The notes below the pieces were generated by a model. That model was not told the DNA's origin. It did no database searches and saw only the letters and a program-made list of their open reading frames with translations. DNA of 64,000 nt from Acholoe squamosa (taxonomy: Eukaryota > Annelida > Polychaeta > Phyllodocida > Polynoidae): contig OX439035.1 in the NCBI GenBank assembly GCA_949317995.1, positions 3,524,181-3,588,180 on the forward strand, written 5' to 3'. The translations under genes and the position numbers were made by a program. This document shows positions 23,903 to 56,640 of this stretch, piece after piece (position 1 is the first letter of the stretch; each line of letters begins with the position of its first letter).

Positions 23903-24653
23903 ATGACCCTAGATAGGTAGTACAACCTCTTAACTTATTGTCTGAGTGTATTTATGGGTATATATATGATGATGTATGGCTGAGCTGTGGCCATTCTCGT
24001 AAAGGTTGATGAGATGTGAGGCGTGAGTAAATTCCGTGGAATATATAAGTCTCAACGCAGGCACTGAAGACACAGTACTGGTATTATATAGCAGGCAAAC
24101 TGCCATTGTTATATAAAGTACACATATTGGAGACAATGGAGAGCTATTATAATGATTGTATAAGTGTTCATTACTGAGCTAGGCTGAAGTTAGGAAATTG
24201 GAGAAATAATTCCTAATTTTTCAGCATTTCCAATATTTTCATCAATGCGTCATTTCAAGAGTTTCCGACCCTTACTTTAGCCTCTTGGTATACATAAAGA
24301 TATATATTGTACCAGTTTGTACACAGAATTTGGTGCAGCTAGATCTATATTTAGTAGTTATAATCATGCTGCAACTGTTTTTGTTCACTCACGCCTCATG
24401 TTTTTGGAAGGTTTTACTGCGTCTGTGATAAAAACTGACATGTTAGGAGTTTGATCCTTGAATGAAACTTTTTAATAAGCCAAGATATAGGGCTATCAAT
24501 AAAAAATAATGTTATTAAGAAATACTGAGTTTGTTAATTCCAGACCCAGGCCCCCCCTGTCCAGTAAATCTTGGAATTGGAATATATATATATAGCATTA
24601 TATCAAAAAGCAACAGGATTATCTGAATCATGCCTCCCATTAGTGTATACAAT

Positions 24654-25232
24654 CAGATTTCCCCCTTAACAAATTGGTCTTAAACAAGATAGTATTTTAA
24701 CATAATATAGTATGACACCCATGCCCACTCGTAGACATACCAATTTAAAGAACATGACTTTAAAAAGACATTAACCATGTATTCAGCTACAAAAAATCCC
24801 ATTCCTTCTGTACCACTGCAGTGTATCGGCATGATGTATGAATGCACTGATGCATCATGATGGCTAATGGCCATGATGCATTAGACGCCTTTAAAGGGTT
24901 AAAGAATAAGCATTCAGCAATGCCATGGTTAATCCTGTAGAATTACTAACCTTACAGAATCATATATGTAACCTACTTTATGATTCTCCATCAGTGAAGA
25001 TAACTTGCAATGGACAGAACCCTTGCAACAACGGTGGAACATGCATTCCGACAACAGATCCACCAGGACAAAACCAGGGACCTGATACTTGTGACTGTGA
25101 TAATGGCTATACAGGGTCTACATGTGAAAGTAAGTGAGGCACTGGTAGCATTTTACATTCTATGGTGCATAGGAGTCTGCACATTCAGGATCAAAAGACA
25201 TAACATAATCCACTGTCATATTCATAAAAGAA
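24654..25232 (+). repeat. Left copy of 580-bp direct repeat flanking the LINE
   Basis: The segment starts cagatttccc and ends cataaaagaa, just where the LINE 3' end begins. The right copy at 33964-34544 has the same start and end, abutting the LINE 5' end. Both copies share deletions that set them apart from the A1 to A4 units. They differ at only a handful of positions. Confidence 0.8.
24995..25129 (+). CDS. EGF-like exon A5
   Basis: The exon follows the 6.7-kb transposon. It has the same module and splice sites as A2. It lies inside the left copy of the approximately 580-bp direct repeat that flanks the LINE, so it may be the original of A6 or its duplicate. Confidence 0.75.
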
Positions 25233-25809
25233 CTTTTTTGAGGTTTGAAAATGTTTTATTGTCAAGTCACTATTCATACAGAAAGTGGTAAAATTAGACA
25301 ATAATGTGAATCCTCGTTCAGTTATTACATTAAGTGGTTGTTTGCACATAGATCAATGAATAAAGATGGGAATTTATACAATGAAGAATGAGAACAATAA
25401 TATAAACAGAAAAAATAAAATCTATATAACAAACAGTATATACTATGTACACAAATAGCAACCTCTATAATCGTACAATAAAAGTTCAAAAAGAAGGGCA
25501 GCAGGCATGGTACACCAGTTTGTTACTATCAACAAGTTTTATACTAGCATGTATTACACTATACCAATAGGATATATATGGACAGATCAGTAGGTACAAA
25601 ACATATCTTAAACAGATGATCAGCAGATATACAGTATGAGAGTATAGTCACTGTGAGCTCATGGATATAATTTATGCGGTGTAGTCTTTCAACAGCTCCA
25701 CATGAATAAATTCTAATAGAGGGTGTAGTCAGCAAACAACAGCTCCCTCTACTCAATCAGGATAAGGTGTAGTCTTTCAACAGCTCCCTAACCTGTATCT
25801 TTTTTCATA
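25233..25809 (-). other. LINE 3' UTR
   Basis: The 577 bp after the ORF2 stop contain two copies of ggtgtagtctttcaacagct and a partial third. On the minus strand they end with AATAAAACATTTTC and a short A-rich run that abuts host sequence. Confidence 0.7.
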
Positions 25810-28731
25810 TTACTCATCCAGCTCATTCAGCTCATCACCCATTAACATCATCTTGGACAAGTCTTGTATCTGCCTAATTCTTGCTTTAAATTTAAGTTTA
25901 CTTTCACTGTGTTGGACATCAGCTCGGAGATTGTTCCATAACTCAACTCCTCTATATAGCGGCGAGTTGTTGAATCCCATGTTACGTGCTCTGGGAATGA
26001 CTATCTTGAACTTTGATTCTGACCTCATACCTGGCCTTCTGATTTCCTCATCGACCCAATCTGGATTTCTTGATAATTTGTACATGAAGCTAAGCTATAA
26101 TTCTTGTCGTCTCCTCATCAGGAGTGGGATATTAGCCCGTTCATGGAGCTCTTCTTCATTAAGATCCAAACCTCTGAAACAAATTTTCAGGCCTCTCTTC
26201 TGCATTCTGTCTAACTTTTTTAACAGGCCTTCATTAGCCCCCTCGTAGGCAAAACAAGCGTAATCAAAAACAGACATTATGGTGGTTTTATAGACTGTTA
26301 CAGCAACTTTTTCAGATAACATGTTTCTGAATTTACTGAATCTAAAAAGACGGTGGTTAATTTTACTATTTAAATCCTTTAGTGCAGGTTCAAAACTCAA
26401 TAGACTGTCTAACTTTAATCCTAAGTAGCAGTAGTTATTTAGAGTTTCAAGTTCTTTGTTATACAAATATAGTTTTTGGCCCCTGGACTTTGGTAACTTT
26501 TTGCATGAACCATACCACACAACTTTGGATTTATCCGTGTTAGCAGTAAGCCTCTTGGTTACAAACCAGGATTGTAATCGATTTAATGCCGTTTGTAACC
26601 TATTGGTTATAGTTTCAATTTTGTTGTTTGAGCTGTATATTACCAAGTTGTCTGCATAAAGATAATGTTTACAATCAGCAAGAACATCACTGACATCATT
26701 TATATATAGCATGAACAAGAGCGGTCCCAATACAGACCCTTGCGGGACACCAAATCATACTGGGGCTTCATTAGAAACAAAGGAACCAATTTTAGTATAC
26801 TGGCTTCTCCCAGTTAAGTAACTCATTAGCCAATTGAGTGTTGTGTCATGTAAACCAAGTTGTCCTAAAATTTCAACAAGATAGGCGTGATTAACACAAT
26901 CGAACGCCTTACGTAGGTCAAGATAACAAACTCCAGTCAAATGGCCTCTATCTCTATTTTCATAGATATCGCTCAGGAGTCTGAAGACTGCATCTGCAGT
27001 CCCCAGTCCTGATCGATAACCAAATTGTTTTGCAGAAATAACATTTTTCTTATTTAGAATTTCATTTAGATGGCAATACATTATTTTTTCCGCAATTTTG
27101 GAAGGTACAGGTAATAGTGATATCGGCCGCCAATTGGTGATTAACTTTAGATTACCGGGCTTGGGTATTGGATTCACCCTTGCCCTTTTCCATTTTTCAG
27201 GAAATATGCCACTGGTTAAGCTCAGTTCGTACAACCTAGTAACAGGATCTAACAAAAATAACAGTGCTGTTTTCAAAATATCACATCTAATACCATCAAT
27301 TCCGGAAGTTTTGTTGACATTTATTTCTTTTATGAGCATCTCAACAAAGCCTTTCTCAACTCGCACAGGAATTTCAGCTGGATCAACAGGTTCAGTCATT
27401 AATACACGCCCAGGATAACCATTATCTGTGAAAACTGAAGATAGTTTAGCACCAATATTTGAGAAATAATCATTTAAATAATTTACAGATTCATGCTCTG
27501 ACTTGATAAAACCATCATCACCTATCAATTCTGGAGGGGCAATTTGCACCTCTGGTTTCAAAACTCCATTTAAAACTCTCCAGAATCGCTTTGGGTCAGA
27601 CTTAGCCTCCTCCAGTGCAGACTTGACCTGGTTGGCTTTTGAGTACCTGATAGCCTTATTAATTCTACAACTTAGCTGCCTGGCTTTATTGAGATAATAA
27701 TCATCCTTAATTTTCGAAAACATTTCCACATTGTCCTCGCGTTCATTTATCATTGACAAGATGTCATGTGTCATCCATTTATTTCTTCTGTCCACAATCT
27801 CAATTTCAGACCAAGGACAGTACTCATCTAAGTATTCAATTATCAAGTTTTCAATGAATGACCAAGCACCATCAGGGTCGTGCAGTTCATAAAAAACATC
27901 CCAGTCTGCCATTATTAGCCACTCTTTGAAAGTTTCTTCATCATAACCTTTGTACTTTCTCACCCAAACTTTCTTTTTAATATAGTCAACCTTCTCTCTT
28001 GTTTTTACAGCAAACACAGGCAGATGATCACTTACTAAAAAATTCAAGACACCAGATGTAATAGACTCATTGTAATTAGTCAATATATTATCTAAACATG
28101 ATACAATAATCTTATAAGGTCTAGTGCACTGATTAATGAGTTTATGATAGCCGTTAAATCGGCAAGCATCGATTAGCTTTACAGTACTAGGTAGTTTTTC
28201 ACGCAAGGTATTTATATTTATGTCCCCCATAATCCATTGTTCAAGCCCTTCTTTATCTGCAATTTCCATAACACGAGACAAATGTAGAAAAAACTTATCT
28301 ATCTTGCCAGAAGGAGGTCTATATAGAGTGACCAATTGTAAAGTATGTGTCTTCAAGACTAGATCTAATACTAGACATTCAATATCCTTGCTACTACAAC
28401 TAATGTCATTGCGTATCTTAACATCAAGATTAATGTCATCTCGAATGTAAACTGCTAAACCTCCGCCTTTCTTTCTATTTTGGTCCAGCCTGAACAAATT
28501 CATGCCTTCCCAGTTTATTAAGTCATCATCATAGTCTTCATGTAACCAAGTTTCACTCATTCCAACTATATCAGCACCATCTAAATGGTCAAATATTTCC
28601 TGCCTTTTGTTAAACATACTTCGCGTATTTAGATGTACCATTTTCAAGCCCTTCATATTTAGAAAATCGTTTAATCGTGTAGTTGTTGCCATTACATAAA
28701 CAAATACAAGTAGACAATAGTTTATATACAA
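25810..28731 (-). pseudogene. LINE ORF2: endonuclease and reverse transcriptase
   Basis: About 970 codons lie in one frame. The endonuclease is at residues about 30-245, with NTRS (35-38), SETW (59-62), YRPPS (127-131), GDIN (169-172) and SDHLP (234-238). Reverse transcriptase starts at about 470 (TSGIDGI), with WRPISLLPV, DLRKAFDCVNH and GVPQGSVLGPLLF boxes and a C-terminal LWNNLRADVQ-type tail. The catalytic box reads YADN (26647-26658) where YADD is expected. In-frame stops are TGA at 26755-26757 and TAG at 26095-26097. The start could be the ATG at 28731 or the in-frame MATTTRLND (about 28692). The protein would copy the element RNA at a nicked target, but this copy is unlikely to be active. 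Confidence 0.85.
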
Positions 28732-28739
28732 AAAATAAA

Positions 28740-29910
28740 GAATTATAAATTAAAAATAAAGGAGCCCCTGACTAAATTCTAGCCAGAGGCTCAGATATCC
28801 ACCAACAGAAATAACCAACTTAATGTTCTGTGGGTGGAATACAACAAGAGAGAGGGAGCTAATACCAAGTTACTTATAAGATAATCTCAGCTCCGTGACA
28901 AAAGATAAAAAACCACGCATATGCAATATTGTGTTGTGTCAATGAGTAAGTAAACTCTGAGTTTTTAACTTAAATTTATATATATTATTGCATCTTATCA
29001 AATCAGTAAATTAGTTAAATAAATTACAAATAAGCACCTAAAGAAGGAGGGAAATAAAGTTAAAGTTAGAGGTTCAAAAAGGTTGTAAGCCCTTGGTTAT
29101 TTTGATTCTAGTATAGAATATTTTCTTAGTCATGTAGAATCACATGAAAAGTTAGGGATTAATATTGATAAATTAATTATTAAGTTACTACTAATGAAGG
29201 GTTAGTTAGCTCACCCAGTGTTACCGGACCTTGTACTAGTTTGGTCATAGATCTTATCTATGTATTCGTAGCTCTCTGAGACACCACAATGCACCCACTG
29301 TAATCATTCCACCGTCACCAGTAGTAATGTTCTTACCTACAAATAGAATAGAACAAAAATTACAATACATCAATAACAGTGACACATTTTTCAATTATGA
29401 AACGATTAGCTATTTAATTAGCATTTCATTGTATCATGCCATTCAAGTGACAAAAAACTGTAGACAAAAATAATACAGAAGTAGTACACGAGTAAATATA
29501 TGTAACCATGCATTACTTAACACTAAGCGACCAAGAACATAGACCACCCTTTGTATAATCATCAATGTACCAACACCAGCTTGACTAAGCTTACAATGAG
29601 TGAAGCATGCATTTCTTTTATCGAAAGTTCCACTCTAAAATTTGGATGTGCTCTGTGCATAAATTGCAACATGTTGCCTGGGGTAGAATAACAGGTCATT
29701 TTTAGAAAGTTCAGATATTTTATGAACTTATCAAGTGGTCATAATAGTCATAGTAGGTGCAATCCTCACGAATTGCTCCCAAGACAACCAGTCAGGTATC
29801 CCTTGGCTTTGTCAGTTATAGAAAAGGTGTATTAGGTGCAATCCTCACGAAATGCTCCCAAGACAACCAGTCAGTCAATGAACTTGTGTTATAATCTTAT
29901 GGACAAATGC
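28740..29910. other. Spacer between SGNH ORF and ORF2 of the LINE
   Basis: No open frame of note is present. A 41-bp segment beginning aggtgcaatcctcacgaa is repeated in tandem at about 29757 and 29834. The length (1.2 kb) is unusual for the space before a LINE ORF2. Confidence 0.6.
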
Positions 29911-30713
29911 TCAGCCTAAGCATATTTTATTTATCTGAGCAGTCACCTCGTCCCATTCATACTCATCATCTTCTTCATCTTCCATTACATCATCAGCTCC
30001 AGCAACATTCTCAACCTTCTCAGGCGGCAGGATTTTCTTGACTACCTGGGCAATACGTGCTGCTAGTTCCTTCTTAACATCATCTGTGGCATGTAGGCCA
30101 TCTCTCATTTTTTTAGGGCCATATTGGCATGAGAATTTCGGGGCTTTGCCAACCTTTCTCCCTTTCTTGCCCCGATTCCACCTGTTTTTGTGGAATACAG
30201 TGTGCAGCTTGATGGTGGACATTTTATAGATGGTGTTGAGATATTGCACATCTCCCTTTAGGAGTTTGATGCTCCTATTCAATGCAGGCTGATTGGGATC
30301 TGGCAAGCTCTTGCGGTTGAATTTCTGAAGGTCCATGCCGAATATTGTACAAATAACATATTTGGTTTCAGGATGTTGTTTATTCAACACCTGTAGCATC
30401 CGGCTTAGCCTGACTGAGACTACCGCCCTACAAGTGGCAGCATCAATGTGAGGGAAGTAGATGTCACGTTTCCCGTGAATATAGTGCCGCGCTGTAACAT
30501 CGCAGGCTCCGGCCATGAACACGACCAGGTCATAAGCCTCAGTGTCAAGGTTTTTTTCAGCACTTTATCCTGAATTGTAGCAATGGGCCATGATTTATGA
30601 GCACACTCACCACCTTCATAATTTTCAGCATCATCTAGAGTGTCAGCTACCAGAACCCCCATTCCTTCACCACGAGAGTCCCCGGACAATAGAACCAACA
30701 TTTCGACCTTCAC
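29911..30713 (-). pseudogene. SGNH/GDSL-hydrolase-like ORF in the LINE
   Basis: The frame from 30713 begins VKVEMLVLLSGDSRGEG, where GDS matches block I with the Ser nucleophile. A shift at a run of seven A (about 30555) moves the frame to one reading EAYDLVVFMAGACDVT (block III, GxCD where GxND is usual). The C-terminal part holds DGLHATDD, matching the block V D-x-x-H pair. After that it is basic and then acidic, and ends at 29911. CR1-type LINEs are known to carry such esterase domains in ORF1. Here it is a separate frame after the NADAR ORF. No ATG suits the start, but a 3' splice-like site (cactacagtttcag) precedes it and a donor-like CGT|gtaaga lies in the end of the NADAR ORF, so splicing between them would stay in frame. 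Confidence 0.65.
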
Positions 30714-30797
30714 CTGAAACTGTAGTGACAGATTATTGCATTCAAGATAGAAGCAACACTAAACAGTAGTTAGTTGATACACACTAAATTATTAACT

Positions 30798-31868
30798 TCA
30801 GGTCTGACTATAGAGTTCTCTTACACGCATCACGATCTTCCCGTGCAAGTTCTTTCCCAGGAACTTATCTTCAGTTTCATACTTTGCATTGTTTAAAGTG
30901 CTCCACGGCCAACCTGAAGCCCACTTGTCCGAGCCAGTTCCCTCTATTAATAGCCTCAACCCAATATTTAATAAGTCTTGCATAATTTCTTTATTCTGCC
31001 CATATTTAGCTTTGATCAGGTCCTCCATAAGGGAGGGTTCGAGATCCAGAAACGGGTGATTCATTGGGATTTTTTTGGAGTCACCTTTCAACTTGATCAA
31101 ACGTGGATCTGTCATTGAGAGCACTTCTCGGGCTTCAGCCGGATGACCTAGCTCTAACAATCTGACATGGAAATACCCTTGTTCTACGCTATTGTAGGTG
31201 TATTTGATGCCTTTGTGAATAAACTCAAGTTTGCATGGGAACCAATTTGAAAAGTGCGCATTAACACCTTGGTAAACTATGCCCATTTTGGTGTGTAGTA
31301 TGCGAGTTTCACCATCTGTTTTGTTTGCCCGCCTCTTAGCAGGTTTTCCCTTGATTGGGGGTTCATAAGGGGTGTGTGCAACTTTGTGCTCATCCGGGAT
31401 ACCAGAGAGAGATGTGTAGTCGTAGGATGTACCTTCAATATTTATACCATCCTTGTCAGTACCTGCAGTAAGACCCTTTTTTTTGGCAGCTGCTACAATA
31501 GCTCTGCCATGCTTTTTAGCATCTCGCATCTCTCTTGACTCATCCAAGGCAAAGCCAATCTTTGTTTTCATTTGCTTCCCTATTTCATTCAACTGCCATC
31601 TTTTTGCCAGTATGGCTGACTTGATGGCAATGTTACTACAACACACCATTATGGGCACCTTTTCTTTTGGTGGTTCCTCACCTTCTTGGATCTCAATGGG
31701 TTTTTTCATCCTAACAATCTCCACAAAATCTCCATCATTACAACGGATGTCTAGTTTTCTGAATAGGTCATACAGAACAGGCAATAGTTTCTGATTTTGT
31801 CTTGACCATAAGCCATATATGACAACATTCCTTTCAGGGGAGCTGGTGGCATGCTTAACAGTTCTCAT
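30798..31868 (-). CDS. LINE ORF1 C-terminal part: RRM-like and NADAR domains
   Basis: Residues about 14-115 (NVVIYGLW... to GFALDESREMRDAKK) resemble the RRM-like RNA-binding domain of LINE ORF1 proteins. Residues about 196-352 match the NADAR (YbiA/DUF1768) fold family: HFSNWFPCKLEF, TYNSVEQGYFH, MTDPRLIKLKGD, LIKAKYGQN, GSDKWASGWPW and FLGKNLHGKIVMRVREL line up in order with the family's FSNF, S-x-E-x-x-Y, W-G and G-x-N-x-L-G-x-x-L-M-x-x-R blocks. NADAR proteins known elsewhere cleave N-glycosidic or ADP-ribose bonds, and the activity here is unknown. The frame is open upstream of the first Met to about 32220, adding some 115 coiled-coil residues. No stop or obvious damage is seen in the NADAR part. 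Confidence 0.75.
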   Translation of the reverse strand: MRTVKHATSSPERNVVIYGLWSRQNQKLLPVLYDLFRKLDIRCNDGDFVEIVRMKKPIEIQEGEEPPKEKVPIMVCCSNIAIKSAILAKRWQLNEIGKQMKTKIGFALDESREMRDAKKHGRAIVAAAKKKGLTAGTDKDGINIEGTSYDYTSLSGIPDEHKVAHTPYEPPIKGKPAKRRANKTDGETRILHTKMGIVYQGVNAHFSNWFPCKLEFIHKGIKYTYNSVEQGYFHVRLLELGHPAEAREVLSMTDPRLIKLKGDSKKIPMNHPFLDLEPSLMEDLIKAKYGQNKEIMQDLLNIGLRLLIEGTGSDKWASGWPWSTLNNAKYETEDKFLGKNLHGKIVMRVRELYSQT

Positions 31869-32211
31869 ATTTGTCAGGACTTGGCTGTAGCTTGATTGTC
31901 CAATTGTCTTCCCACTGACTAAAAGTTCACCAGTCTGTCTTGTTAACTCGTTGAGATTTTTCTCATTTCGATTGACCTTGCCCTTTATCTCATTTTCTAC
32001 ACTGTTTAAGGAGTCTCCAATCTTTTTGACCTCTTGGGTAATTCTGTTGTGAACATTGGTACTAGCAGTGCCAACAGAATTTTGAATTGTTTTGATTTCT
32101 TGATTTAGTTTCGAGTCAAGGCTGTCAACCCTGAGGTCAACTTTATTTACTAACTCTCTAAGAGTTTCTTCTAGTCTTTTGAATCTACCATCATTGTCTT
32201 CATGTTTGTCA

Positions 32212-33039
32212 TCAATCTCCTTCTAACCTGATTATATCCTTCCGTCTGTCTAATAGCAGTTGCTCATGTCTGGTCGAGTCAGCTTCGAGTCCCGTCACTT
32301 TGGTCTCTAAGTCAGAGTGAGATTGTTCAATATTTTCTAATCTGTCAAGCAAGCCAGTGTTGTGGACCTCTAGGAGTTTTGCCATTTGCTGCAGCATGTC
32401 TGTTTTGAAGTCATTCATTTGGTTTCGTTGCTCCCTGACTAGTTCTACTTTCAATTCATTCATTTGCTCCTTTTCTATTACAACCGATATTCCCAGTGTT
32501 TCAGATACTTTTCCATCAACATTTTGATTATTTCCCGCCTCAAGTTGGAACATTTTACCAGAATCCAGTTTTGGTTCATTTAGATTCTTACTCACATTCA
32601 CAATATTGGCAAGCGGATTGCTGCCATTGATGTTTACATTTCTAGAGTTATGCTCTGCATTAACTGCACTCTCCCCCTCTGCATCACCCATATCAGGCTG
32701 ATTCCCAATATCCCTTACCGGCTCCGAATAGCCATCTCCCCCACTTTGAGGTATCCCCCGTGATGTCAGAGGATTCCCCACCACATGTGACACAATGTTA
32801 TTCCCCGCCTCTTGGGAACTCCCAGTGGCTTCACCAGTGTTTTCCGATAGACCTTCCATCCCTGGAATAAACTCCACTACCCTACGTAGTATGCTACTCT
32901 CACTCAAATCAAGTAGGATTTTCTTATTTCCTGGGGATATTGAATTTGTGTCAGGGGATTGACTTGAATCTCCGCGACTGCGGGGTCTCTTTTGTGCTGG
33001 CGTAGTATTATCAACCGTCGTCATGACGCCCAGGCCCAA
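32212..33039 (-). pseudogene. LINE ORF1 N-terminal part: low-complexity and coiled coil
   Basis: The frame starts MGLGVMTTVDN. It has a basic/Ser-rich start (QKRPRSRGDSSQSPD) and an Asn/Gly/Glu-rich middle, and ends in a heptad-rich coiled coil (ENIEQSHSDLETKVTGLEAD). A single-base shift near 32220 (RLEGD then stop, versus EIDDKHEDNDG in the next frame) separates it from the coiled coil that leads into the RRM-NADAR part. Coiled coils in LINE ORF1 proteins drive trimer assembly on RNA. Confidence 0.7.
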
Positions 33040-33963
33040 TGTTATAAATCAAGTATGCTCTGAGACTACACTGTCCCACGTTAAACAAGCAAGTTAGACA
33101 ATTTGCCAAAAATCAGTTCTGACAGCTCTAAGTTGTAAAATTTACATCTTTATATTTCTGCATGAAACTCATTAAATAGACCAATCCACCCTGTAGATGA
33201 TGAAAATAAGGGTTAATTGTTTGCCTAAATTCAGGACCTGAGACTACACTGTCCCAAGATAAACGTTCGGTAGACCGCCGTATGTGCGCGGTCTGAGACC
33301 ACACTGTCCCAAGTTAAACAACTTGCCAAAAAATCAGTTCTGACAGCTCTAAGTTGTCGTAAAATTTACATCTTTAATTTCTGCACCAAACTCGTTAAAT
33401 AGACCAAATCCGCCCTGTAGATGATGAAAATAAGGGTTAATTGCTTGTCAAAATTCAGGAAAAGGTCTAAATAATACTCGTTCACTCGCGCGAAGACCGT
33501 ATTTGCGTGGCCTGAGACTACACTGTCCCAAGTTAAACGTTCGGTACACCGCCGTATGTGCGCGGTCTGAGACTACACTGTCCCAAGTTAAACAACTTGC
33601 CAAAAATCAGTTCTGACAGCTCTAGGTTGTCGTAAAATTTACATCTTTAATTTCTGCACCAAACTCGTTAAATAGTCCAAATCCGCCCTGTAGATGATGA
33701 AAATAAGGGTTAATTGTTTGTCAAAATTCAGGAAAAGGTCTAAATAATACTCGTTCACTCGCGCGAAGACCAAGAAATGTCACGAGCGAGTGAGCGATAA
33801 AAGGGGATTTGGTAGATTAACGGTCTTGTCTTCTTTCAAAAACAGATGATTTATCCAGAATTTCCTAAATCAAATACAGCCCCTCTTAATTTAACGAATT
33901 TTACCGATCGCCACGGAGCGAGTACGCGTACACGCTCATGCTGGCATAGCTCGCTCTCTCTCT
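33040..33963 (-). repeat. LINE 5' UTR with tandem monomers
   Basis: Three units begin with gagactacactgtcccaagt-type sequence (about 33060, 33298, 33568), followed by cagttctgacagctctaagt and tgatgaaaataagggttaat. Shorter partial copies of the ctgtccca segment lie at about 33240 and 33510. The outer part carries CG-rich gcgcgaagacc and gtatgtgcgcggtctgag repeats. Monomer-type 5' UTRs act as promoters in some LINEs, and that is inferred here. Confidence 0.7.
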
Positions 33964-34544
33964 CAGATTTCCCCCCTTAACAAATTGGTCTTAAACAAGA
34001 TAGTATTTTAACATAATATAGTATGACACCCATGCCCACTCGTAGACATACCAATTTAAAGAACATGACTTTAAAAAGACATTAACCATGTCATTCGGCT
34101 ACAAAAAATCCCATTCCTTCTGTACCACTGCAGTGTATCGGCATGATGTATGAATGCACTGATGCATCATGATGGCTAATGGCCATGATGCATTAGACGC
34201 CTTTAAAGGGTTAAAGAATAAGCATTCAGCAATGCCATGGTTAATCCTGTAGAATTACTAACCTTACAGAATCATATATGTAACCTACTTTATGATTCTC
34301 CATCAGGGAAGATAACTTGCAATGGACAGAACCCTTGCAACAACGGTGGAACATGCATTCCGACAACAGATCCACCAGGACCAAACCAGGGACCTGATAC
34401 TTGTGACTGTGATAATGGCTATACAGGGTCTGCATGTGAAAGTAAGTGAGGCACTGGTAGCATTTTATATTCTATGGTGCATAGGAGTCTGCACATTCAG
34501 GATCAAAAGACATAACATAATGCACTGTCATATTCATAAAAGAA
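33964..34544 (+). repeat. Right copy of 580-bp direct repeat flanking the LINE
   Basis: The segment starts cagatttccc directly after the LINE 5' end and ends cataaaagaa. It contains exon A6. After it the unit continues normally (tttgatggatgtc), which the left copy lacks because the LINE follows. Confidence 0.8.
34307..34441 (+). CDS. EGF-like exon A6
   Basis: The last type A exon. It has three replacements relative to A5: the split first codon reads Arg rather than Met, PPGPNQ replaces PPGQNQ, and GSACE replaces GSTCE. All six Cys are kept. Acceptor ctccatcag and donor A|gtaagt are intact. Confidence 0.75.
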
Positions 34545-55568: not shown

Positions 55569-56159
55569 ATGAAATCACCACAACTACCATGAAAACCACA
55601 ACAACTACCCCGACAACCACAACAAGCACCCCGACAACCACAACAACCACCAAGACAACCACAGCAACCACCCAGACAAGCACGACAACTACCACAACAA
55701 CCACCCCGACAACTACAACAACCACCCCAACAACCATAACAACCACCCCGGAAACCACAACTACAACCCTGACAACAACAACTACCCCAACAACCACAAC
55801 AACTACCCCAACAACCACAACAACTACCCCAACAACAACAACCACCCCGACAACAACAACCACTCCAACCACAACAACCACCCCGACCACCACAACAACC
55901 ACCCCAATGACAACCACAACAACCACCCTGGCAACCATAATACCTAACCCGACAACAACAACAACCCCAACAACCACAACCACCCCAAAAACAACAACCA
56001 CCCCAACAACCACAACAACCACCCCAATGACAACCACAACAACCCCATCAACCACCCAAATAACCACAACAACCTCCCTAGCAATGAAAATAACCACCCT
56101 GGCAACCACTTCTACAAAGCCAACAACCACCAATACCACAACAGCCACAACAACCCGAG
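55569..56159 (+). CDS. Thr/Pro-rich mucin-like exon
   Basis: A 591-bp phase 1-1 exon (acceptor catttgcag, donor G|gtaggt) coding for 197 residues, nearly all Thr with regular Pro (TTTTTPTTTT-like blocks) and scattered Met, Lys, Ile and Ala. Such stretches are typical O-glycosylated stalks in secreted or membrane mucins. It is built from ACAACC/ACAACA repeats, so length polymorphism is likely. The long Val-rich frame on the other strand is a by-product of the repeat. Confidence 0.75.
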
Positions 56160-56310
56160 GTAGGTATTGAACATTAAATGGAGTAGATAACATATACAGG
56201 TAGATGGAACAGTCTCATTTTCAGGTGTCAGAAACAGAACCGGCATGATAAATCAAAGTATTAAAATGAATTTTGTACTGAATGCATACAATACTACTTT
56301 TCACCCACAG

Positions 56311-56378
56311 AATTCAAAGTTAAGTGTGTTTTGTCATACCATGAACCTACGAATCCACATAAACTAATTGCACCCTGA
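56311..56378 (+). CDS. Possible last exon
   Basis: The acceptor tcacccacag precedes a frame that, in phase 1, reads EFKVKCVLSYHEPTNP and stops at TGA (56376-56378) after 22 codons. This closes the gene at an exact codon count. There is no membrane anchor. The exon could be wrong if the real 3' end lies further on. Confidence 0.35.
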
Positions 56379-56640
56379 CAACAACATCAACTACCCGACA
56401 ACCACAACAACAACAACCACCCTGACAACCACAACAACAACCACAACAACCACCCCAATGACAATGGGGGTGAGTGCTAGGGGGGGGCTTGGAGATAGGG
56501 GGTGCTATGGGTTGGGTGGGCAAGGGCCCTTCACCGTATTTTATGGAGGCCCAGGGGCAGATACTAACTATTTTAACCAAGGGCCACCCGGGCCCGTAGC
56601 TCCAGATTTCTACGGGCCAGCAGATAATTCTGTGGACCAA
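56379..56640. repeat. Degenerate ACAACC-type repeat and G-rich tract
   Basis: About 56380-56460 repeats the ACAACCACC theme of the mucin exon but without a usable acceptor in frame. It is followed by a G-rich stretch. It may be a decayed second mucin exon. Nothing else is supported. Confidence 0.4.

Follow-up and report, generated by a model that had tools for sequence, protein, structure and literature searches.

A NADAR domain in the ORF1 protein of a LINE retrotransposon family of the annelid Acholoe squamosa, with sequence evidence for purifying selection

LINE retrotransposons encode ORF1 proteins that are described as little understood, particularly where these seem to include an enzyme (PMC3905857). 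The closest published counterparts of the element reported here come from the Pacific oyster Crassostrea gigas, where divergent YbiA-type NADAR matches lie in ORF1 of several Tx1 LINEs, and from a Gypsy lineage of the brown alga Ectocarpus, where a NADAR domain lies at the N-terminus of Pol (PMC12477816). Among other LINEs, CR1/L2-type elements such as ZfL2-1 have an SGNH esterase ORF1 (PMC3905857), and L2/CR1 elements with an L1-like ORF1 have a coiled coil and an RRM-like region there (PMC4120745). NADAR is not mentioned in the excerpted text of PMC3905857, and the word is absent from PMC4120745 and PMC11203168. In animals, NADARs have been reported from molluscs and other groups in a paper in which the word stem 'transpos' does not occur (PMC11125620), and the protein SNA-3, said to be nematode-specific, carries three NADAR domains and takes part in SL1 trans-splicing (PMC9303266). 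A search of published papers returned no title on NADAR in a LINE beyond PMC12477816 among the papers listed.

The element described here lies in a 64,000-nucleotide stretch of contig OX439035.1 (assembly GCA_949317995.1), hereafter the window. It shares with the oyster Tx1 LINEs a NADAR domain in ORF1, and another LINE of the same genome, L051, is of L1/Tx1 type like them; unlike them, the LINE in the window falls outside L1/Tx1 by its reverse transcriptase and has a separate SGNH-like ORF, and a selection analysis, of which the excerpted oyster report gives none, is provided here (PMC12477816). In Ectocarpus a retrotransposon has likewise captured a NADAR, but that element is an LTR retrotransposon with the domain in Pol rather than in a LINE ORF1 (PMC12477816). 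Our element resembles the CR1/L2-type LINEs in having an SGNH-like esterase in the first-ORF region (PMC3905857) and the L2/CR1 LINEs in its coiled coil and RRM-like ORF1 (PMC4120745), and differs from both, as far as they are described there, in joining the esterase-like and RRM-like parts in separate ORFs and in adding a NADAR. SNA-3 offers a parallel as a case of animal NADARs in an RNA-protein complex that are needed for function, but it is the product of a host gene and not of a transposon (PMC9303266). As far as the literature searched extends, what is added here is a NADAR in a non-L1/Tx1 LINE adjoining a separate esterase-like ORF, together with purifying selection on the domain, a pocket altered throughout the family, and the occurrence of five LINE types with a NADAR in a single genome. 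A preliminary description of this DNA had known of no LINE with such a layout; this is only partly right, given the NADARs in oyster Tx1 ORF1s (PMC12477816).

The LINE occupies positions 25233-33962 of the minus strand (8,730 bp), with its 5' end at 33962 and an AATAAA signal and A-run at its 3' end. Its 5' UTR holds tandem monomers (33090-33771, minus strand), with a 273-bp unit repeated over 33237-33771 and accompanied by partial units. ORF1 comes next in the 5' to 3' direction, then an esterase-like ORF, then some 1.1 kb devoid of long frames, and finally ORF2. The coiled-coil, NADAR and endonuclease-reverse transcriptase (EN-RT) frames follow one another in that order on its minus strand, in agreement with the original placement of the NADAR frame between the 5' tandem repeats and the EN-RT ORF. 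An EN-RT ORF2, many copies, 5' truncation, an A-rich 3' end and a target-site duplication together identify the element as a LINE. Two further copies are about 98.7% identical to it along most of its length, and the arrangement of the 5' monomers varies among other copies.

The NADAR domain (30816-31259, minus strand) corresponds to residues 204-351 of a 356-aa frame at 30798-31868 on the minus strand. Over these residues it matches PF08719 (E = 6e-15) with 56.3 bits, above the curated cut-off of 35.1; TIGR02464 matches residues 203-351 (1.4e-10, 41.7 bits) under its own cut-off of 73.7. The ORF1s of L020, L023 and L032, three other members of the family, reach 59.5, 58.3 and 49.9 bits to PF08719, and tblastn extends to plasmid NADAR genes (E down to 1e-8) and phage NADAR genes (E = 1e-6). 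Among 53 other NADARs, 35 columns reach a conservation of 90% or more; the window sequence keeps 18 of these, set against a mean identity of 26% over all columns and 14% over the variable ones. An AlphaFold2 model of the domain built from 54 sequences (pLDDT 81.5) superposes with a TM-score of 0.73 on both the YbiA structure 2b3w (Foldseek E = 5.6e-06) and the ADP-ribose-bound Phytophthora structure 8bau (E = 1.3e-05); next in the PDB comes another NADAR, at TM 0.36, and the remainder are lower. The claim that this ORF1 carries a NADAR-family domain was thus borne out by the profile search and by the comparison with YbiA that had been proposed as checks. The domain has in common with the NADAR/YbiA superfamily its profile, its fold, the residues E43 and E125 (8bau numbering) and a G-x-N-x-x-G motif; it differs in being only 19-33% identical to 64 aligned bacterial and phage rows, in having its pyrophosphate contacts replaced, and in being fused to a LINE ORF1.

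Sequence searches of other collections returned little. A phmmer search of the PDB with the window frame gave no match up to E = 1, and pattern scans of IMG/VR (ORF1 and ORF2) and of GTDB genomes (ORF1) gave no relatives. Nor did a protein database search with the 356-aa frame and the isolated domain, which covered lengths up to 1.75 times the query; since this length window leaves out full-length ORF1s (670-760 aa), its result says nothing about other animals. Among defence-system profiles, the PADLOC candidate anti-phage model PDC-M42C matches the LINE NADARs in all three scanned (E of about 1e-10 to 3e-11), and the NCBIfam NADAR anti-phage protein NF053876 matches a LINE NADAR weakly (E = 0.0077), far under its cut-off.

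In the window copy, a frameshift divides ORF1 into an N-terminal part, disordered and coiled coil (32212-33039, minus strand), and a C-terminal part with coiled coil, RRM-like segment and NADAR (30798-32222, minus strand; a 474-aa open frame), which in other copies are joined in a single 750-aa frame. The frame first singled out is accordingly part of a LINE ORF1, as had been proposed, but represents only its C-terminal half, which stays open up to 32222. The candidate RRM-like or L1-ORF1-like segment (31359-31868, minus strand) is recognised by pattern only. It is conserved across the LINE subfamilies; it has no Pfam match in the window frame or in the nine members scanned, a profile search of the PDB gave nothing better than E = 0.4, and a single-sequence fold model reached a pLDDT of only 36. 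Because these three approaches gave no support, the pattern noted in the preliminary description stands while the RRM label itself is a pattern-level guess.

Between ORF1 and ORF2 lies an SGNH-esterase-like ORF (29911-30713, minus strand) that the initial account of the layout had overlooked, and which is frameshifted in the window copy (30713-30420 and 30522-29911). In four subfamily representatives it measures 281-325 aa, and all four carry, by eye, GDSR, G-x-C-D-x-T and DG-x-H. SGNH esterases are marked by the blocks GDS, G-x-N-D and D-x-x-H; set against these by eye, the ORF has GDSR and DGxH, and its third block reads G-x-C-D. Weak, sub-cut-off Pfam matches to Lipase_GDSL_2 (E = 0.006-0.15) and DUF459 (E = 0.001-0.14) were obtained for all three representatives scanned, and none of these for the window's own pieces. 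The stretch without a long frame that follows contains a 45-bp direct repeat with copies 79 bp apart (29751-29874). ORF2, with endonuclease and reverse transcriptase (25810-28731, minus strand), matches PF00078 above the cut-off and PF03372 slightly under it. The genome search showed the two in-frame stops of the window copy to be one TGA and one TAG, and ORF2 is open for 979 aa in other copies.

The assembly searched for relatives comprises 1.48 Gb in 63 contigs, with positions tens of Mb into each of contigs C1 to C18. The 356-aa frame gave at least 126 match rows between 99% and about 40% identity; a broken copy may be represented twice among them, and some end before the NADAR. Counted by hand, 29 rows span approximately residues 1-350 without a stop, from 100% down to 42% identity: 10 at 97-100% (the window included), one at 56%, 13 at 51-54%, two at 47-49% and three at 42-43%. 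We took 16 loci of up to 9.9 kb each across this identity range. All 16 carry the NADAR, and all have the order ORF1 with NADAR, esterase-like ORF, ORF2, with at least one part broken in many; one locus, L026, has no match to the C-terminal ORF2 piece. Stop-free frames for ORF1, esterase-like ORF and ORF2 measure 750, 281 and 979 aa in L020, 674, 291 and 1021 aa in L023, and 695, 325 and 1001 aa in L032. Identity among four subfamilies, A to D (L020, L023, L025 and L032, respectively), amounts to 50-60% for ORF2 (where C is represented by a partial frame), 43-57% for the esterase-like ORF and 31-41% for ORF1. The window's subfamily is represented by 30 ORF2 rows of near full length, of which, by hand comparison, 16 adjoin an ORF1 row and 14 do not; the three of these 14 that were examined (L048-L050) are 5'-truncated between ORF2 and ORF1, and no full-length copy without a NADAR was found among those examined. 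Further copies with an intact domain had been sought as a test of the initial proposal, and the NADAR is not the peculiarity of one copy with relatives lacking it.

Selection on the NADAR was assessed by pairwise codon-model fits to residues 200-352 in 12 hand-picked pairs. In all eight deep pairs, between subfamilies, omega lies between 0.018 and 0.118 and omega = 1 is rejected (2dlnL 46.8-102.2), so that dN/dS across copies, also proposed at the outset, indicates purifying selection between subfamilies. Because dS is saturated in these pairs (2.96-13.5), their omega values are rough, and the likelihood-ratio tests and the excess of third-position changes are the safer evidence. Third codon positions are the most divergent in eight of eight pairs compared; between L013 and L023, for example, the proportions of differences at positions 1, 2 and 3 are 0.37, 0.29 and 0.63. 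Among four shallow pairs, neutrality is rejected for L025-L033 (omega 0.24, dS 0.10) and L023-L035 (0.20, dS 0.13), and unrejected for L026-L032 (omega 0.39) and L031-L032 (0.45). Fitted in the same way, the esterase-like ORF has omegas of 0.026-0.046 (six pairs), ORF2 of 0.021-0.030 (three pairs) and the ORF1 N-terminus of 0.086-0.149 (three pairs). Eight young copies have 17 synonymous and 12 non-synonymous NADAR variants, and among the variants common to at least two copies these numbers are 11 and three. Taken together, the omegas, codon positions and young-copy variants place the constraint on the NADAR near that of the enzymatic ORFs and above that of the coiled-coil half. On the sequence evidence, the NADAR is an old component of this LINE lineage held by purifying selection.

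The window's family is not the only LINE in this genome to carry the domain. Of the 3,224 first-look candidates of a PF08719 search of the genome, 150 were scored; all 150 exceed the family cut-off and all outscore the window's domain. The two best, at 183.8 and 169.3 bits, are host-type NADAR genes (C17:9901769 and C14:682108), which keep E43, K50, R79, W89, E125, D130 and W133 and have C at position 93. In the extracted loci (L046:855-1520 and L047:744-1484) these genes share 63% identity across 172 residues, each with its domain in one open frame. Four repeats picked for long open frames from the other 148 scored (L045, L051, L052 and L053) all proved to be LINE ORF1s with an endonuclease or reverse transcriptase frame downstream, which brings the NADAR-bearing LINE types of this genome to five. 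L051 is of L1/Tx1 type: its ORF2 aligns with human L1 ORF2p across some 880 residues at 353 bits, and a match to its endonuclease is found in the solved LTX endonuclease, which we take to be that of Xenopus Tx1. L045 scores 95 bits against L1 and 70 against R2, and L053, in one broken piece, 50.8 and 46.9. The reverse transcriptase of the window's family scores nearly equally against human L1 ORF2p (55.8 bits) and R2 (52.2); measured against the 353 bits of L051, the window's LINE lies outside L1/Tx1 on this sequence comparison, and its motifs would suggest a CR1/L2-like element.

In L045 a single ORF1 (L045:867-3137) contains both a NADAR and an SGNH-like stretch (by eye; weak SASA match, E = 0.07), so that NADAR and SGNH-like parts are paired in two LINE types, within one ORF in L045 and in two ORFs in the window's LINE. 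In L052 a 240-aa frame (L052:3302-4021) lies between the NADAR-bearing ORF1 and ORF2, and its sole Pfam match is a weak, sub-cut-off one to NarE (E = 0.0011).

In phylogenetic trees, the NADARs of the window's family group together on a single branch, separate from the host genes (100/99 support), and stand beside the L045 NADAR with weak support (69/76). A single origin of all LINE NADARs is neither shown nor rejected (AU p = 0.41). All three NADAR trees were flagged for long branches, and the long phage row L010 was omitted from the last two.

These results bear on two readings in which the domain would not be serving the element. The genome does contain host-type NADAR genes, from which one might suppose that the domain was captured by chance, or that a host gene next to the LINE was misread as part of it. 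However, the domain sits in the same ORF and at the same place in all 16 loci, it is under purifying selection, the family's NADARs branch apart from the host genes, and the ORF2 copies lacking ORF1 that were checked proved truncated rather than devoid of NADAR; on the grounds of conservation, selection and tree we reject this reading and leave it next to no probability. Alternatively, the LINE NADAR might serve the host and be tolerated as a shield of host nucleic acids from toxic guanine ADP-ribosylation, a role to which the sheer number of first-look NADAR candidates would lend itself. We regard this as very improbable, since two host-type genes with canonical catalytic residues are already present and selection within LINE subfamilies is the expectation of a function at the level of the element.

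What the domain might do for the element can be approached from its active site. The 8bau positions named in PMC11543638 were read from 22 aligned LINE segments, among which are several near-copies. E43 and E125 are each kept in 21 of the 22 (R in L028 and K in L031, respectively), and K75 and W133 in all; position 50 is basic throughout (R in 20, K in two), and W89 is replaced by F and R93 by E in every segment. In place of R79, a second alignment has D in all six family members, and the column of the first has K, N or H. For D130, the state is uncertain because the two alignments disagree, the first showing D in six of 22 segments and the second S. Across rows from the five LINE types, E125 is kept in 10 of 10, E43 in nine and R79 in none. 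The pyrophosphate contact set K50, R79, W89 and R93 is therefore not found in the window's family; the last three bind the pyrophosphate of ADP-ribose in 8bau (PMC11543638). The change from K50 to R corresponds to K95R of the E. coli C7 NADAR, a mutant reported to hydrolyse in vitro without rescuing cells from the toxin (PMC11543638). The glutamate pair that holds the distal ribose is thus retained and the pyrophosphate side is altered alike across the family, a pattern in the aligned residues that simple decay would explain less well than a substrate that is conserved yet shifted, or than a role in binding.

A binding role would make the NADAR a non-catalytic module for nucleic acid or ADP-ribose that aids RNA binding or multimerisation by ORF1p. 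The drift of site residues (R93E, W89F, K50R) agrees with this, and LINE-1-type ORF1p is described as having a C-terminal domain besides its RRM, the end that the NADAR takes here (PMC3905857). Retention of E43 and E125 in nearly every segment and in nearly all rows of the five LINE types, where binding does not obviously need them, argues against it, and we consider it rather unlikely.

Another possibility is a catalytic NADAR acting on some other small substrate, such as a phosphoribosyl or nucleotide adduct or a damaged nucleotide, which would clean nucleotide pools or RNA ends for reverse transcription. Kept catalytic glutamates beside changed R79, W89 and R93 would suit this, as would the N-glycosidase activity of E. 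coli YbiA on riboflavin intermediates (PMC11543638). A domain tied to ORF1 would, however, be oddly located for small-molecule metabolism, and all NADARs tested, YbiA included, took ADP-ribose off RNA guanosine (PMC11833690), so we think this reading unlikely.

The explanation we favour, tentatively and at somewhat less than an even chance, is that the domain is an ADP-ribosyl- or N-glycosyl-hydrolase tethered by ORF1p and acting on the RNA or cDNA of the element. Its retention by selection suggests that these jumping genes may need the domain to process or protect their genetic material. ORF1p would multimerise on the element RNA and thereby bring the NADAR to that RNA and, later, to the complex of cDNA and target. 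Acting there as a hydrolase of an N-glycosidic bond, it would most probably free guanines of ADP-ribose, or of a related ribosyl adduct, in the element RNA, the first-strand cDNA or the nicked target; an adduct left in place would stand in the way of reverse transcription or single out the RNP for destruction, and its writer would be a host or environmental ADP-ribosyltransferase. With ORF1p presumed to sit on element RNA, clearing such or related adducts from RNA, cDNA or nicked target would be the simplest use of the domain. NADARs have been found to remove ADP-ribose from DNA guanines (PMC11543638) and are the only hydrolase family found active on ADP-ribosylated guanosine bases of RNA (PMC11833690). 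The initial proposal of a counter to host ADP-ribosylation may be said to fit this published activity together with the retained catalytic glutamates, and the replaced pyrophosphate-binding residues may allow for another substrate.

Guanosine ADP-ribosyltransferases include CARP-1, a clam protein. Bearers of such enzymes (pierisins, ScARP, CARP-1) may use NADARs for protection (PMC11543638). A search with PF22596, the Scabin-like family and the one ADP-ribosyltransferase family covered, gave no match in the Acholoe genome and none in 14 control genomes, and is uninformative because no control genome matched either.

That selection keeps a NADAR in one LINE lineage, and that other LINE types of the same genome have one too, points to the removal of ribosyl adducts, from nucleic acid or from nucleotides, as a step in the retrotransposition cycle. 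Through one small domain it becomes testable whether animal cells ADP-ribosylate the nucleic acid of retroelements, and what invertebrate NADARs act on. A bolder and doubtful extension is that several LINE clades of this animal lineage depend on an ORF1p NADAR that erases guanine ADP-ribose from retroelement RNA or cDNA, and that the pairing of NADAR and esterase is an accessory module common to them; if true, ADP-ribosylation of nucleic acids would be an invertebrate defence against retrotransposons to which LINEs carry the counter-measure.

The insertion itself is recent. Direct repeats adjoin both ends of the LINE, as a target-site duplication whose left copy (24653-25232) aligns to the right copy (33963-34544), neither being assigned a strand, with 574 of 580 aligned columns identical and two one-base gaps. 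As the two copies differ at 1% of sites, the insertion is young, and the few lesions of the window copy in about 6 kb of coding sequence (one frameshift each in ORF1 and the esterase-like ORF and two in-frame stops in ORF2) could have arisen by post-insertion decay. The LINE sits inserted in a tandem array of approximately 860-bp units (34643-55019), in which its flank encodes, by eye, an EGF-like exon; the other array units in the window match the duplication piecewise only, at about 96% over the longest piece. An Rfam search of the window gave no match.

The duplications are unusually long: that of the window copy has about 580 bp, and that of a copy on C16 (L041/L039 and L040/L042), which extends some 490 bp further at its 5' end than the window copy, about 1.2 kb. 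About 3 kb of flank around the C8 copy revealed no duplication, nor did the shorter flanks of the C12 copy and L021, and the duplication of L035 measures at least 83 bp (L035:886-968). Further along the window, positions 55576-56458 hold a tandem repeat of ACAACAACCACCCC-like units which, if translated, would be mucin-like (Thr/Pro-rich, by eye).
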